44,968 nucleotides of DNA from a virus: the IMG/VR virus record IMGVR_UViG_3300020205_002429, positions 1 to 44,968 of that record; one strand, 5' to 3'. Shown piece by piece: positions 39,775-44,968 of this stretch. Under the pieces are notes generated by a model. It made no database searches. It had not been told where the DNA came from and saw only the letters and a program-made list of their open reading frames with translations. The first letter of the stretch is position 1. Every line of letters begins with the position of its first letter. A program made the position numbers and the translations under genes.

Positions 39775-39847
39775 TAGCAAACGACATAAATTTTGCCTTT
39801 TCTTGCTGTAACGCAGTAGATAAAATCTAAAATTATTATTCGTGAAT

Positions 39848-39854
39848 GTAAATA
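39848..39854 (+). promoter_or_regulatory. Late-promoter-like GTAAATA, 8 bases before the start codon
   Basis: GTAAATA is followed by CACGTACT and ATG 39863. No Shine-Dalgarno precedes either this ATG or the in-frame GTG at 39842. Confidence 0.42.
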
Positions 39855-39862
39855 CACGTACT

Positions 39863-40447
39863 ATGACACAACACCACATTTACGATGCCGCCAGCGAGGT
39901 TAAACTTATTGCTTCTGATCTTTGGTCAGTTACCAATTGTTTTGGTCCTGAAACCTTTGATCACTTTAGCAAACTACACGTTAATCACAATGAGACTTGG
40001 ACTCGTCCACCTGATTGTTTGGAATTTCGACTGCAATTGGTGGCCGACTCGCCCACTAGTAATCGGTTGAAACAAATGAGTATTGACATGCTGCCTGAGA
40101 TAGAACGTATAGTTGGGTATCAGTTGATACCGTCAGAAAGCAAGATTTGGTTGGATCTGTCAGGATGGCATTGTCCGTATCATGTGGATGCTCCGTTGCT
40201 GTTTGTTACCTATCAAATGTTTTTATGGTCTCACGGTGAGGTATACGGTACTGAGTTTTGTTATGGCGACACTCCAAAAGATTTTTCTGATCCTCGTACA
40301 TTTGGAGAATTTGACAGGGTCGGCACACCTTTTATACCAAACACTGGTTATATCAATTTAAATAACAACAAGATTCACCATGCCAAGAACATGACTGGAA
40401 CCCGACTAAGTGCTTGTGTTCAGTACTGCCGCAAAGTGAAAGCATAA
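39863..40447 (+). CDS. Putative 2-oxoglutarate/Fe(II) oxygenase-like protein
   Basis: This encodes 194 residues from ATG 39863, preferred over the GTG at 39842 because the late motif lies between them. The metal triad appears in order: SGWHCPYHVDAPLLF (His-x-Asp), then NNNKIHHAKNMTGTRLS with the distal His and an Arg about 8 residues later that would bind 2-oxoglutarate. WLDLSGWHCPYHVD and GYINLNN are shared in style with the convergent gene at 40406-40987 (ASLDLSGNKIMMHRLHTD), suggesting they are distant paralogues. The substrate is unknown; phage oxygenases of this kind may modify DNA, proteins or lipid-linked sugars. Confidence 0.72.
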   Translation: MTQHHIYDAASEVKLIASDLWSVTNCFGPETFDHFSKLHVNHNETWTRPPDCLEFRLQLVADSPTSNRLKQMSIDMLPEIERIVGYQLIPSESKIWLDLSGWHCPYHVDAPLLFVTYQMFLWSHGEVYGTEFCYGDTPKDFSDPRTFGEFDRVGTPFIPNTGYINLNNNKIHHAKNMTGTRLSACVQYCRKVKA

Positions 40448-40987
40448 TGTTTCACGCACCGCATTGGAGGCAACTGGAACCCCTGTGCCAAAAAATGTAC
40501 GAGGATAATTTAACATTAACCAAGCATCATTTGGGTTATAGGGTACTCGGATCAATTCAGTAGGTTGGAAAAAACTAATATCTTCATAATCCATTGGATG
40601 TGTTGAATTGACTGTTGCATTGCTACAAAATACACTTGACATGTCTAAGTCAGGTTCTTGTGCCATACATACCTGTAGAAAACATCGTATATCAGTGTGT
40701 AATCTATGCATCATAATCTTGTTGCCGCTTAAATCCAAGCTGGCATATGCCACTTGAGGTTTCACAGCATGCCCGGTCAATTGTGTAATAGGGGCGACAC
40801 ACGCTGCCAAAACTGAGTCTATTGTAGAATTGGTTCCCCAAGGGGTTAATAATCTTCCTGGGTATTGTGTTTTCCACAATTGTTCGGGACTGCGATAGCT
40901 GTTACGGACAGAGTTAACGTCCGCAAAAAAGTTTGGCAATCGCCACACTGTGGGAAGGATTTGTTCAGCATGTTCAAAGTTGATCAT
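40406..40987 (-). CDS. 2OG-oxygenase-like protein with atypical metal triad
   Basis: This encodes 193 residues. SLDLSGNKIMMHRLHTDIRC has His97-x-Asp99 as in Fe(II)/2OG enzymes, and VRETLCFHFA holds the expected 2OG-binding Arg178. The distal histidine normally found in an R-T-W/F-H-G turn seems replaced: the segment reads NYPRTFFGTGVP, with Phe at that position. The protein may be inactive, may use another ligand, or may be a pseudoenzyme partner of the convergent oxygenase-like gene. No Shine-Dalgarno; TTAAATA lies 5 bases before the ATG. The 3' ends of the two oxygenase-like genes overlap by 42 bases. Confidence 0.7.
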   Translation of the reverse strand: MINFEHAEQILPTVWRLPNFFADVNSVRNSYRSPEQLWKTQYPGRLLTPWGTNSTIDSVLAACVAPITQLTGHAVKPQVAYASLDLSGNKIMMHRLHTDIRCFLQVCMAQEPDLDMSSVFCSNATVNSTHPMDYEDISFFQPTELIRVPYNPNDAWLMLNYPRTFFGTGVPVASNAVRETLCFHFAAVLNTST

Positions 40988-41000: not shown

Positions 41001-43769
41001 TCATCTAATCAGTGCCAGTGCTTTTATACGGGCCAGCAGCACGTCACTTTCACGACTTTCAAATGTTTTATTAAATCCTGCTGCAAAGTCACTAGGTTTT
41101 GGAATGCCTGCTCCAACCATTTTGCCAAGCATACCCATACTAGTGTCATCAGCACCTTCTGCCATTCCACATTCAGCTAGACCGTGTTCAGGGCAGTACT
41201 CGCCTTCCATGGTCTGGTTGCAACTACCTTCAACAATGCCAGAGCCACCTTTGGTCATTTCTTGGCCGCCTACTCCGCCAACAGCAGCACCAACTGGGCC
41301 CATCACACTGCCTAGCATGGCACCGCCAACTGTGCCAAGTACTCCTTCATTCATGCCCAGATGTTTTGCCAAGTGGTCACTTACCCATTCATACGGATCA
41401 CCAGTTCTGGCTTTCATTGTGCCATAAGGCATGTCACCGTTGTTGCTGTAGTAGTCATACAAGGCATGATACAGGTCATCGTCAAGGTCGCCGGTGGTTT
41501 CAAAGTTTCGTACTTCGTGTTTGAACCGATCAAGTATGTGATCAATAGTTTCGCCTGTAGCATCCATGAGTCGGCTTTCGGCCACCGGTATACCAGCCAG
41601 TTTGGTTAGGCTATGGATGTCTTCAAAGGTCGCAAAGTTTTCACCTTCTGCCATACCTGTCCTTTCTTCTCGGTTATCCATTCTATATTCGTAATCACTT
41701 AGTGCTTCATTGTAGGCTCTTTTGAATGTTTCATCAAAATATGATGCGTCATCATTACCACTACCACCATTAGTCATATCCATATAGTTTACATTGATAC
41801 TATCACCGTCATTATCTACCCTGGCACGAATTTCATGGTCTATGGTTTTATTCACAAATCTCATTTTTCTACCAGTTGGTGATCTGTAAATTTTATATCC
41901 GTGTTGTTTGGCAAAATCTATTGTCTTTTGTAGACCAGCCATTGCGTCATCATTAACGCCTTCCGCCATACCTTCTTCGTTGTATTGTGAGGAGCTATGG
42001 GCAGAATCTATTTTTCCTGTTTCAGGATCATATTGATGTGAATGAGTGTCGCCAAATAAATCATCTTCGTGTCTTGCAAAATATCCACCGTTGCTTGTTT
42101 TACTAAATGTAACTGTTCCTTTTCCATAGTGCTGTAGAAGTGCTTTTTTAACTTTTTGCTCCACTGCCCCGCTGAATCCTTCACCTTCCGCCACACCTTT
42201 GCTCATATACTTTTTAAGTTTTCCAGCAGCTTGATCCATACTAGCATCACGCTTGTTAACTTGTTTGTGTAAATTATTTGCTTGATCCTCATGGTCATAT
42301 GACTTGGCCACAGCAGAAGCAGTACCCTTGTCATACAAATTGGTTGCTTTTTCTGAGTGACCTGCGGCTTTGTCCAGCATTTTAGCATTTGACTTCTCAG
42401 CTTTCTTGCCATAAGATGACAGAGTATTGACGCTTAATTCGTTTAAGGCGCCTTCCGCCACAGGTGGTTGTTGACCAGTACCGGGCGCTGCCATTGGATC
42501 GGCTACAGCCGGATCAGATTCAGGTTGGGCCATGGTGTCAGACTCGGGTGTTTGAATCCCCAGTTCGCTCAAGCGACTCATGACTTCAGTGTCATCCCAA
42601 GCATTGGCACGTGGATCACGGTCGGCTAGATCAATCAGTCTATCAAACAACATATCATCGCCTACCAAGTCATACAATTGTTCTGTGGCATTGGTAGCAT
42701 CCGGTCCGACTATGAGTTCTTTACTCATCAACTGTTTGAGTCTAGTCAATTGTTCCGGAGTCTCAGGTAGATTCCATGTGCCTTCGGACAGATGGTCTAT
42801 CCATGATTCAAATATGTCAGCTTCTTTCATAACGTTTCCTTGTTGTATTCTTGCCAGCAATGGCAATGCGTCTTCAATCCGTGTGTCCAATGTTTGTTCA
42901 ATAAACATGGTCTTGATGTCTTCTACCAACTTTTCATGATCCACTGATTCAGCTGGATGCCAGGATTCAAAGTATGTAGAATAACCTCTATGCGTACTCA
43001 TGCGTTTGATATGCTCACGCAAATTCTTATAATATGTTTTTGCTTGTTCCACAATCTCTTGTGTAACACCTTCCATGACTCTGCCGGCACTGGCACGATT
43101 GAATCGACTTAATACCTTGAGTTCTCCAACCATTTCACAAATATGATTGCCACGTATATCGTAGGGTTTGCCACCTTGTTTCACATGTTCTAACATGGCA
43201 CGCCCACCACCTAAGTTGGTAAATGGAAGTTTAAAACGTTCGCCATCAGCTGTTTCGATAAAAATGCTTTCTACGTAGCGAAATCGAGCATCGTTTTCAC
43301 CTAACACACGATTGTGCTTGAGCATGAGTCGTGCTTCTGTGGGCTCTCCGGCATAGCTCACACGCTTGTTACCATAATACCCTTCAAACAGCCCTTCTGT
43401 AATGGCAGCAATGCCAGCTTGTATATGCTTGAGCTTGCTGATATCTGTCAAGGTTGCATGCCACCGATTACGATGTGCTAGATTTGTCAGTGTATGTTGA
43501 AACTCAAAAAATTCATTGCGGTCCTTGTGATCTTCAATGGTCTTGCCAAGATTGTCACCGTACATGACAAACATTTCATTGTCGTCTCCCAGCACTATAA
43601 CCATGGTACCATAGTTGTTGCCCGAACTACCAATATAATCAAAGCTAAATGTTTTGGCAGTAGAGGCATCCTTGACTGGGCGGCCGTCTTTACCCAAAAA
43701 TTCCGGGTGGAAATTATGTGTTTCTAACAAATCGTTTAGTTTTTGTTCAATATTGAGTTCTTGTGCCAT
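41001..43769 (-). CDS. Large modular phage protein with repeated [MV]AEG sites and a C-terminal glycine zipper
   Basis: This encodes 922 residues. Residues 1-435 look globular, with a conserved-looking block (YIGSSGNNYGTMVIVLGDDN; FKLPFTNLGGGRAMLEHVKQ). From residue 436 on, short modules are separated by near-identical sites: PVAEG 436, GVAEG 525, GMAEG 600, GMAEG 705, GMNEG 805, GIVEG 844, GMAEG 868. The modules differ: a basic helical one (440-524), two small alpha/beta ones, an acidic helical one, a glycine-zipper (809-838, VLGTVGGAMLGSVMGPVGAA) and a Cys/His-containing one (EYCPEHGLAECG). The hydrophobic-x-Glu sites resemble targets of the T4 prohead protease. It directly follows gp17, and CTAAATA ends 7 bases before the ATG without a Shine-Dalgarno. 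It is likely an internal head protein cut at maturation. Confidence 0.75.
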   Translation of the reverse strand: MAQELNIEQKLNDLLETHNFHPEFLGKDGRPVKDASTAKTFSFDYIGSSGNNYGTMVIVLGDDNEMFVMYGDNLGKTIEDHKDRNEFFEFQHTLTNLAHRNRWHATLTDISKLKHIQAGIAAITEGLFEGYYGNKRVSYAGEPTEARLMLKHNRVLGENDARFRYVESIFIETADGERFKLPFTNLGGGRAMLEHVKQGGKPYDIRGNHICEMVGELKVLSRFNRASAGRVMEGVTQEIVEQAKTYYKNLREHIKRMSTHRGYSTYFESWHPAESVDHEKLVEDIKTMFIEQTLDTRIEDALPLLARIQQGNVMKEADIFESWIDHLSEGTWNLPETPEQLTRLKQLMSKELIVGPDATNATEQLYDLVGDDMLFDRLIDLADRDPRANAWDDTEVMSRLSELGIQTPESDTMAQPESDPAVADPMAAPGTGQQPPVAEGALNELSVNTLSSYGKKAEKSNAKMLDKAAGHSEKATNLYDKGTASAVAKSYDHEDQANNLHKQVNKRDASMDQAAGKLKKYMSKGVAEGEGFSGAVEQKVKKALLQHYGKGTVTFSKTSNGGYFARHEDDLFGDTHSHQYDPETGKIDSAHSSSQYNEEGMAEGVNDDAMAGLQKTIDFAKQHGYKIYRSPTGRKMRFVNKTIDHEIRARVDNDGDSINVNYMDMTNGGSGNDDASYFDETFKRAYNEALSDYEYRMDNREERTGMAEGENFATFEDIHSLTKLAGIPVAESRLMDATGETIDHILDRFKHEVRNFETTGDLDDDLYHALYDYYSNNGDMPYGTMKARTGDPYEWVSDHLAKHLGMNEGVLGTVGGAMLGSVMGPVGAAVGGVGGQEMTKGGSGIVEGSCNQTMEGEYCPEHGLAECGMAEGADDTSMGMLGKMVGAGIPKPSDFAAGFNKTFESRESDVLLARIKALALIR
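41155..42464 (-). repeat. Dispersed 14-base repeat encoding G[MV]AEG boundaries
   Basis: Within the 922-residue gene, close copies of ccttcYgccaYacc (plus strand) occur at 41155-41168, 41644-41657, 41959-41972, 42184-42197 and 42451-42464, with diverged copies at 41227-41240 and 41344-41357. All keep the same frame, marking module borders. Confidence 0.85.
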
Positions 43770-43785: not shown

Positions 43786-44968
43786 TCAACGCATCATAGA
43801 CACAAACGGCAAAGGCTCAATTATATTGTCGCCGTGGTCCTTCAAGTGTGCATCAAGGTCAGGATGATAGCTTTGTAGCATTTGTAGCATGCGTACAGCA
43901 AGGATAGTACTCATTACTAGATCATCAGTTTCTCCGGGCTTGGCAGCATAGCTTACGCCATTTGCAACAAATGTTTTTAACTCGGAAATCAATGGTTTAC
44001 TACGGATATTCATTCTATGCGTTTCTACCAAGTGCTTGAGTTTACTGCATGCACCAATCTTACTTTTAGCTGTGGTGTTAAATCCCTTGCGGTATCTACG
44101 GCCGCCGCCAGCACTGGCAGAGTCACTCAAGAAATATCCACGTATGTTTTCTTCACCAAATTCCGCAATACTGATCAAAGCAGCTTCACCAATGGTGTTA
44201 TTTTCCACTGAGTAATAGACCATTTTATCGTCACCAACCACAGTATACAATTGATTTACAATATCTGCCAATATACGTATCTGCTCAGGAATGGTGGTTT
44301 TGTTGTGCCGCCATTCTGCTACCTGTTCCGTTGTGCCTGCTTCAAATACCTGTATGGCACTGGGATCTCCACCTGTGCCCAGGCTAGGATCCAATGCAAC
44401 CACATAAATTGATCCAGGTTTGGGATCAGCATACCATCGTACTTGCCCAGTTTTCTTAAAAGGTTCTATGCCTTCGAGATCAATCAATGTGGTGGCAGCA
44501 ATCAACGTTTCATCATTTATAATAAATTCGCAATTCATCTCACGACGAAATCTATCTTCTCCCAGTTGTGCTCGTTGTTGTTCTCCCCAGGCATGATCTC
44601 GGTCCGGATGTTCCTCCCAATAACTGCGGAATGCTTTGAATCCATTTATTCCAAGTTCGGTATTGTTGCCATGTTCGTCCATGGTCTTATTGGCGCCTTT
44701 CCATAAAAACGCAAACTGATCTTCGTCTGAATTCGGGGTTGATGTAATAATTGCTTTACCACCAGTTGCTAGTGTAGGCGAAATACTGGTCCAAAATTCT
44801 TTAGCAATTGTGGGTCTAACAAATGCAAACTCATCTGAATATAACAACGAGATACTCATACCCCGTCCGGTTGTTTCTGTTGTGGTTTGACTTACAATAC
44901 GACTACCGTTGTCAAAGTCTATTGACCCTTTGTTATAGCTGGTAACTCCGGCACGTATGTGATTTGGA
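43786..44968 (-). CDS. gp17: Large terminase subunit gp17 (C-terminal part)
   Basis: gp17 pumps DNA into the prohead and cuts it at the end of packaging. The frame enters from the right edge; about 393 C-terminal residues are seen. The region upstream of the first internal Met reads NKGSIDFDNGSRIVSQTTTE then TTGRGMS, as in T4 gp17. Walker B is LLYSDEFAFV, the coupling motif is KAIITSTPNS, and the RNase H-like nuclease has YVVALDPSLGTGGDPSA (first catalytic Asp), SVENNTIGEAALISIAEFGE (Glu) and GETDDLVMSTIL (last Asp). No damage is visible. The preceding ATPase Walker A part lies outside the window. Terminases of this family act by headful packaging. Confidence 0.96.
   Translation of the reverse strand, partial: PNHIRAGVTSYNKGSIDFDNGSRIVSQTTTETTGRGMSISLLYSDEFAFVRPTIAKEFWTSISPTLATGGKAIITSTPNSDEDQFAFLWKGANKTMDEHGNNTELGINGFKAFRSYWEEHPDRDHAWGEQQRAQLGEDRFRREMNCEFIINDETLIAATTLIDLEGIEPFKKTGQVRWYADPKPGSIYVVALDPSLGTGGDPSAIQVFEAGTTEQVAEWRHNKTTIPEQIRILADIVNQLYTVVGDDKMVYYSVENNTIGEAALISIAEFGEENIRGYFLSDSASAGGGRRYRKGFNTTAKSKIGACSKLKHLVETHRMNIRSKPLISELKTFVANGVSYAAKPGETDDLVMSTILAVRMLQMLQSYHPDLDAHLKDHGDNIIEPLPFVSMMR

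Follow-up and report, generated by a model that had tools for sequence, protein, structure and literature searches.

Tailed phages process their head proteins and carry internal proteins. To our knowledge, the phage cargo proteins described so far are encoded one per gene, and the literature yielded no described phage polyprotein that is cut by a prohead protease. In T4, the prohead protease gp21 cuts after L/I-X-E, core proteins are cut into several fragments and capsid-targeting sequences are 10-19 residues long (PMC9026906); the 10-residue propeptide of IpII, MKTYQEFIAE, is annotated as residues -10 to -1 (GenBank X04567). Here we consider a gene on the 44,968-base viral record IMGVR_UViG_3300020205_002429 (“the window,” the whole stretch of DNA analyzed) whose 922-amino-acid product is divided by recurring [VM]AEG borders into a string of modules. 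On balance we favor the reading that this gene encodes a head polyprotein precursor, processed in the prohead, in which the border motif doubles as a recombination seam.

Among described systems, the T4 internal proteins IPI, IPII, IPIII and Alt resemble the window protein in an [LI]-x-E-type motif, in their head location (proposed here) and in being variable cargo without common sequence. Yet these are single proteins with one N-terminal propeptide (in Alt also a C-terminal one), whereas the window protein has many modules and a site at each border. Other modular proteins that we found start M[RK]xxEF[ILV]xE, like IpII (MKTYQEFIAE/A; the T4 protein query of this comparison is supported by GenBank X04567 in its first 86 residues only). 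The T4 core proteins gp22, gp67 and gp68 likewise have several gp21 sites per chain and a scaffold-like C-terminus; however, they are conserved scaffolds, and the window protein, with its exchangeable, hypervariable tail and separately predicted modules, falls outside that class. By its [LI]-x-E motif the protein does fall among candidate substrates of a T4 gp21-type S77 protease, with tail borders relaxed to V or M at P3.

The open reading frame (ORF) was confirmed at 41001-43769 on the minus strand (as are all features within it), with its ATG at 43769, exactly where the initial annotation had placed it without stating the strand. The tail borders have their P1 glutamates at E439 (PVAEG; VAEG codons at 42450-42461), E528 (GVAEG; 42183-42194), E603, E708 and E871 (all three GMAEG; 41958-41969, 41643-41654 and 41154-41165), with variants at E808 (GMNEG), E847 (GIVEG) and E731 (PVAES). 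That annotation located the five borders and the first two variants correctly, but its motif does not fit the first border, which is PVAEG rather than GVAEG; it overlooked E731, and it described as simply globular an N-terminal part that also carries sites, at E125, E129, E316, E321 and E329. The borders exceed chance by a wide margin: five [VM]AEG occur in the 528-amino-acid tail against 0.04 in shuffles, and eight [LIVM]xE[GS] against 1.3-1.6 expected, a count that none of 3000 shuffles of residues 411-922 reached. Chance or an assembly artefact, for which only the metagenomic origin of the record speaks, is thus a negligible explanation, since the same architecture is present in 80 relatives from many samples.

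As had been claimed, the borders are repeated at the DNA level while the modules between them are unlike one another. The pattern GGYRTGGCRGAAGG (two mismatches or fewer) has seven matches in the window, five of them inside the modular gene, and none of 100 shuffled windows reached seven. At [VM]AE[GS] borders across the family, 35% of Ala codons are GCG (6% in the background of the family genes) and 73% of Val codons are GTG (34% in the background). Codon use at the borders thus departs from that of the genes themselves, so their relatedness extends to the DNA and is not confined to the peptide; by this sequence criterion the borders share a common DNA ancestry. Purely protein-level convergence was accordingly rejected on the codon bias; the opposite extreme, that the borders are pure DNA repeats, is disfavored by the sites in the conserved N-terminal part and in gp22 and gp23.

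Modules are exchanged as cassettes between these borders. Three of the modules turn up again as DNA cassettes elsewhere, two of them within genes for non-homologous proteins. Module M4 (amino acids 599-706; 41652-41974) is 98.1% identical over 323 nucleotides to L187, a non-homologous carrier whose N-terminus (MDIRDILKSFDQLTEG...) and flanks are both unrelated, the identity beginning at GGTATGGCGGAAGG and ending at the next border; M4 is also found in L188-L190. Module M3 (amino acids 523-604; 41958-42204; 247 nucleotides) is 96.8% identical to L191, a distant relative adjacent to a terminase large subunit (TerL) gene and with different neighboring modules, and M2 (amino acids 437-528; 42184-42462; 279 nucleotides) is 88.5% identical to the non-homologous protein gene L193, with 47% amino acid identity in L194. 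Compared with the window gene, L002 is 95% identical up to amino acid 528, then has a different module, and is again 92.6% identical from amino acid 705. The other carriers were found by searching with single modules. Among 100 dereplicated genes we identified 33 isolated DNA cassettes, of which 17 starts and 16 ends lie six amino acids or fewer from a site, some threefold more than the 5.0 expected from random positions (p = 1e-6 for starts, 7e-6 for ends). Positions were drawn from inside the same genes because many of the genes had been collected by border motif; cassette ends were also compared in a larger, redundant gene set.

The DNA of the borders hardly varies and keeps the frame, so that phages gain, lose and exchange modules as cassettes, within the gene, with distant orthologs and with different carriers that use the same borders; the border is therefore a recombination seam as well as the proposed protease site. 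The comparison of module content in relatives that the initial annotation had suggested points the same way: across the 80 IMG/VR relatives the first ~430 residues are conserved and the tail (100-900 amino acids) differs in its modules even between close relatives, and its expectation that repeated borders ease shuffling is borne out by near-identical, border-bounded cassettes in other genes and non-homologous proteins.

These patterns alone would also suit borders that are recombination seams or flexible linkers only, in a hypervariable virion protein that is never cut and functions whole: conservation of the border DNA goes further than the amino acids require, with GCG and GTG over-used, cassette ends coincide with borders, and the border pattern by itself marks dozens of unrelated proteins. 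What this explanation leaves unaccounted for is the behavior of the wider site class. In the tails of 55 family representatives [LIVM]xE[GS] is enriched 4.3-fold, and still 3.2-fold (151 vs 47.7) once [VM]AE[GS] is excluded; in their N-terminal parts it is enriched 5.9-fold, a figure inflated by homology. Because counts over homologs are not independent, the z-scores for the N-terminal part are inflated, and single-protein figures and whole-genome rankings are safer. The window protein holds 15 [LIVM]xE[GSAN] sites, seven in residues 1-410 against 2.2 expected (reached in 8 of 3000 shuffles) and eight in residues 411-922, again against 2.2 (2 of 3000). When ORFs are ranked by site excess, the window homolog is first and the scaffold second of 390 in the 300-kb record G017, and scaffold gp22 first and the window homolog second of 159 in G004.

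The [LIVM]xE[GSAN] class was chosen after the borders and the T4 rule had been seen, so the scaffold and capsid protein, neither of which was used in choosing it, provide an independent check. In head proteins of the same phages [LIVM]xE[GS] is enriched 5.1-fold (gp22), 2.9-fold (gp23) and 3.1-fold (gp21), and in 154 other ORFs of G004 it stands at 0.84-fold; reversed and D control motifs gave 0.8-1.3-fold and the K control 1.7-fold. The conserved sites of the N-terminal part have P3, P1 and P1' fixed and P2 free across 45 sequences, e.g., I-[KQRST]-E/G at E125, L-x-E/[GS] at E129 and [LVI]-[AVSTI]-E/G at E329. E129 is invariant in these 45 sequences and a site of its type is also present in GAP32_270, Vibrio 2.275.O, Paride and Phosso. 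In the same phages as the family, gp21, gp22 and, in its N-terminal region, gp23 have conserved sites of like pattern. Such fixed positions in a vertically inherited region, an excess that survives removal of [VM]AE[GS] and that extends to scaffold and capsid protein but not to other ORFs, and the T4-like targeting N-termini of other carriers together make the seam- or linker-only explanation rather improbable. The border motif is, as far as sequence and models indicate, probably cut by the prohead protease.

Structure prediction is consistent with such cutting. In AlphaFold models, the three N-terminal domains are separated by low-confidence linkers that contain E125/E129 and E316-E329. In the tail, nearly all AEG borders fall in linkers of low pLDDT (predicted local distance difference test) between separately predicted modules; the variant site E808, at a helix end, is one exception. 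The initial annotation had called for structure prediction of each module and held that a fold spanning the AEG sites would contradict it; no such fold was predicted.

A suitable protease is encoded by relatives. S77 protease genes are present in G003, G004 and G006, whose head operons run portal - core - gp21 - gp22 - gp23, and in G017, G020, G021, G022 and G023, i.e., in five of the seven largest border-bearing contigs examined, G024 apart; G024 (128.8 kb) gave no S77 match, so that with it five of the eight contigs above 119 kb have S77. Four jumbo isolates have S77 genes too. An S77 or Gp23 gene was not found in most of the shorter relatives' contigs, which are probably fragments. The C-terminal peptide of the window protein (amino acids 912-922; 41004-41036), LLARIKALALIR (also given as LLARIKSLALIK), resembles the scaffold C-terminus NVIDLKRLAGL, and the pattern recurs in only three of 390 G017 ORFs: the scaffold, the window homolog and one modular protein. 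This peptide may, from its sequence, be prohead-binding. Besides the scaffold genes L089, L090 and L091, whose products end NVIDLKRLAGL, the TerL-adjacent protein, modular proteins and a 141-amino-acid protein (L099:9603-10028) contain a similar peptide.

The mechanism that we propose would work like T4 head maturation. The precursor would enter the prohead, probably by way of its conserved N-terminal domains and the scaffold-like (gp22-like) C-terminal helix. A T4-gp21-type S77 prohead protease would then cut after Glu at [LIVM]-x-E/[GSAN] linker sites, a step to which several lines of evidence point; the sites are those of the N-terminal part (E125/E129, E316-E329) together with the module borders of the tail, and about 9-11 pieces would be released. 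Like T4 internal proteins, the small folded pieces would be retained alongside the DNA inside the capsid, and a few of them might be ejected. The earlier suggestion that the borders are maturation cleavage sites thus gains support from the T4 gp21 motif, the enrichment restricted to head substrates, the fixed P3/P1/P1', the linker positions, S77 and the C-terminus, while the cleavage products themselves are what we infer from these.

The modular gene lies directly downstream of a terminase large subunit gene (43786-44967, minus strand; phrog_36964, E 2e-85), the 5' end of which is cut by the window, and SSB, UvsX and UvsY genes follow downstream. Residues 125-269 match phrog_13484 “virion structural protein” (E 1.8e-9), and core-domain homology and synteny place the modular protein in that family. 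Matches to its N-terminal part (tblastn) come from relatives of the jumbo phages PA5oct and RaK2, and the order TerL - modular-gene ortholog - SSB - RecA/UvsX recurs in Paride, Vibrio 2.275.O, GAP32, CBB and Phosso, although SSB and UvsX are not named as such in every jumbo-phage record. The TerL-neighbor proteins of these phages (GAP32_270, CBB_276, Paride_0003; phrog_13484) share the orthologous N-terminal part, the gene order and a conserved [LMV]xE/[GS] before the core; unlike the window protein, those of GAP32 and CBB end after about 430 amino acids, without the modular AEG tail, and the version of Sinorhizobium phage Phosso has 976 amino acids and ends HIARLRKLAGI. Mass spectrometry of CBB virions detected CBB_276, with 8 unique peptides that cover 21.7% of it (PMC5259590 Table 4).

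The virion finding bears on a second alternative, that the protein is cut but serves as a disposable core or scaffold protein (as T4 gp22, gp67 and gp68), most fragments leaving the head and the modules acting in head assembly. A scaffold-like C-terminus and a site excess akin to that of gp22 would fit, as would the fact that T4 core fragments mostly exit (PMC9026906). Core proteins, however, are conserved, whereas these tails differ between close relatives; modules are common to several carriers, some of which have enzyme domains (GNAT, deaminase, chitinase); and the jumbo homolog CBB_276 is present in mature virions. We regard a disposable core protein as unlikely, though it has perhaps the chance of one reading in four.

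Polyvalent proteins (Iyer et al., 2017; PMC5512222) offer a further comparison, being likewise multidomain, variable and probably virion-delivered. Were the window protein one of them, it would be an effector that enters the cell at infection, and any processing would fall to a metallopeptidase domain within it; its multidomain, variable build, its position beside late genes and a BFVD structural relative named “large polyvalent protein-associated domain” agree with this. But polyvalent proteins carry recognizable effector domains, often with a zincin-like peptidase, and Pfam searches of the window protein revealed neither a peptidase nor any other known enzyme domain; its sites match the prohead protease instead. 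A polyvalent protein therefore seems very improbable. More generally, Pfam gave no domain above cut-off for the window protein (the nearest was glycine zipper PF05433 at E 0.093), Foldseek searches of both AlphaFold models against the PDB gave nothing below E 0.04, and structural matches in BFVD were mostly other uncharacterized phage proteins. PepSY/DUF2874-like and acetyltransferase-like identities, the best PDB names from Foldseek, were rejected as insignificant matches.

Several observations weigh against a prohead-processed polyprotein. The N-terminus, MAQELNIEQKLNDLLE16T, does not fit the capsid-targeting type M[KR]xxEF[ILV]xE and, judged by this test, the protein stands outside the T4 internal-protein family. 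The tail borders have V or M at P3, where only L/I is described for T4 gp21. Motif matches at E158 and E233 lie in parts predicted to be ordered and are probably uncut, GAP32_270 as a whole has no significant site excess (4 vs 2.2), and, as the borders are related at the DNA level, copying rather than selection for protease cutting accounts for part of their uniformity. Neither a protease nor a capsid gene was found among the ORFs examined in the 45-kb window fragment, so the protease is deduced from relatives of 56-65% N-terminal identity; the closest long contig, G001 (76% N-terminal identity), ends inside the capsid gene. Cleavage of the window protein and its modular relatives is, finally, something we infer from sequence and predicted structure.

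The remaining parts of the modular gene (41001-43769), a proposed prohead polyprotein by its ORF, its phrog_13484 match and its 80 IMG/VR relatives, can be laid out from the N-terminus. Amino acids 1-129 (43383-43769) form an alpha/beta domain (residues 1-116 in the AlphaFold 2 model) and end at I-x-E125/G and L-x-E129/G or S, within a linker (117-134) of pLDDT <50. The core domain common with jumbo phages follows, as supported by homology and the model (130-329; 42783-43382), and ends in a linker with E316/A, E321/S and E329/G. Amino acids 330-439 (42453-42782) are modeled as a helical domain (helices 338-402) with a Pro/Ala-rich linker that ends PVAE439/G, confidence being low over 411-494. 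Beyond M2-M4, a short peptide with “ENFATFEDIHSLTKLAGIPVAE” (709-731; 41577-41645) ends PVAE731/S, a site present in 22 of 27 relatives. The widely shared module M5 (732-808; 41346-41576) is predicted to be all-helical, with pLDDT about 90 from residue 741, and ends MNE808/G. The putative glycine-zipper segment (809-847; 41229-41345), for which the PF05433 match is below cut-off, ends IVE847/G and has no predicted fold; it might be membrane-active, as the initial annotation suggested. The Cys/His peptide (848-871; 41157-41228), SCNxTxEGEYCPEHGLxECG, is retained in most relatives and might bind metal. Neither of these two pieces had a significant family or fold match in Pfam or Foldseek. Two convergent ORFs with overlapping 3' ends (39842-40447, plus strand; 40406-40987, minus strand) separate the modular gene from the SSB gene; they gave no PHROGs match and no Pfam match above cut-off.

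The borders reach well beyond this family. The exact pattern CAAGGYRTGGCRGAAGG (QG[VM]AEG) occurs in at least 120 IMG/VR stretches and in dozens of unrelated ORFs, with up to four exact matches per locus among the matches listed, and an alignment of 46 carriers, a set selected by that motif, has a consensus of essentially QGVAEG only. Domains found in carriers include GNAT, ParB, cytidine deaminase, GH19 and DUF6321. Glu8 preceded by [LIVMF]x was found in 13 of 40 carrier N-termini but in just 18 of the 483 remaining ORFs at these loci (p = 3e-8), and several ORFs of G017 begin MRAxEF[ILV]xE. Small ORFs in G017 (L318-L332) and in G004 (L093-L101) have this start, much like the T4 internal-protein propeptide, and their sequences suggest a group of cargo genes with products targeted to the capsid. 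Carriers L212, L196 and L218 stand in tandem ORF runs with targeting-like starts (MRAYEF, MRACEFLIE, MRAKEFVSE, MRAIEFINE, MKPSDFLTE). One tail module, in L036:4873-8241 and other carriers, resembles a twin-arginine signal (LSRRGFLRGLGAAAVGLGAAGSAQA), which would be odd inside a head protein; Pfam TAT_signal matches one carrier protein.

Over 360 phage records, almost all of cyanophages, also contain carrier modules, e.g., in Syn9 gp114 and S-SM1_115 (T4-GC119); T4-GC119 has been mentioned as a hypothetical protein that belongs to a mobile gene cassette (Sullivan et al., 2010). Cyanophage T4-GC119 and S-SCSM2R_117 have carrier modules in common with our set, lie near terS and have VVAEK separators; their separators differ in being followed by K, and the proteins have no clear [LIVM]xE[GSAN] excess. 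The Syn9, S-SCSM2R and S-SM1 proteins (L337, L338, L339), with their EEVVAEK-type separators, are cultured models for the same idea. As a more tentative proposal, which we would put at somewhat less than an even chance, freshwater and marine T4-like phages may hold a population-wide library of cargo cassettes, spread over dozens of non-homologous carriers and joined by one ~17-nucleotide QG[VM]AEG element that is both seam and cut, a protein-level counterpart of an integron that re-composes virion cargo.

If the polyprotein reading is true, a cleavable string of exchangeable cargo modules would be a novel means by which a DNA virus delivers numerous small effectors and evolves them, with one gene supplying a changeable set of small proteins per virus particle. 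Sequence alone would then help to predict which small proteins of unknown function travel inside the heads of aquatic phages, and MRAxEF[ILV]xE N-termini could serve to predict head cargo in uncultured phages.

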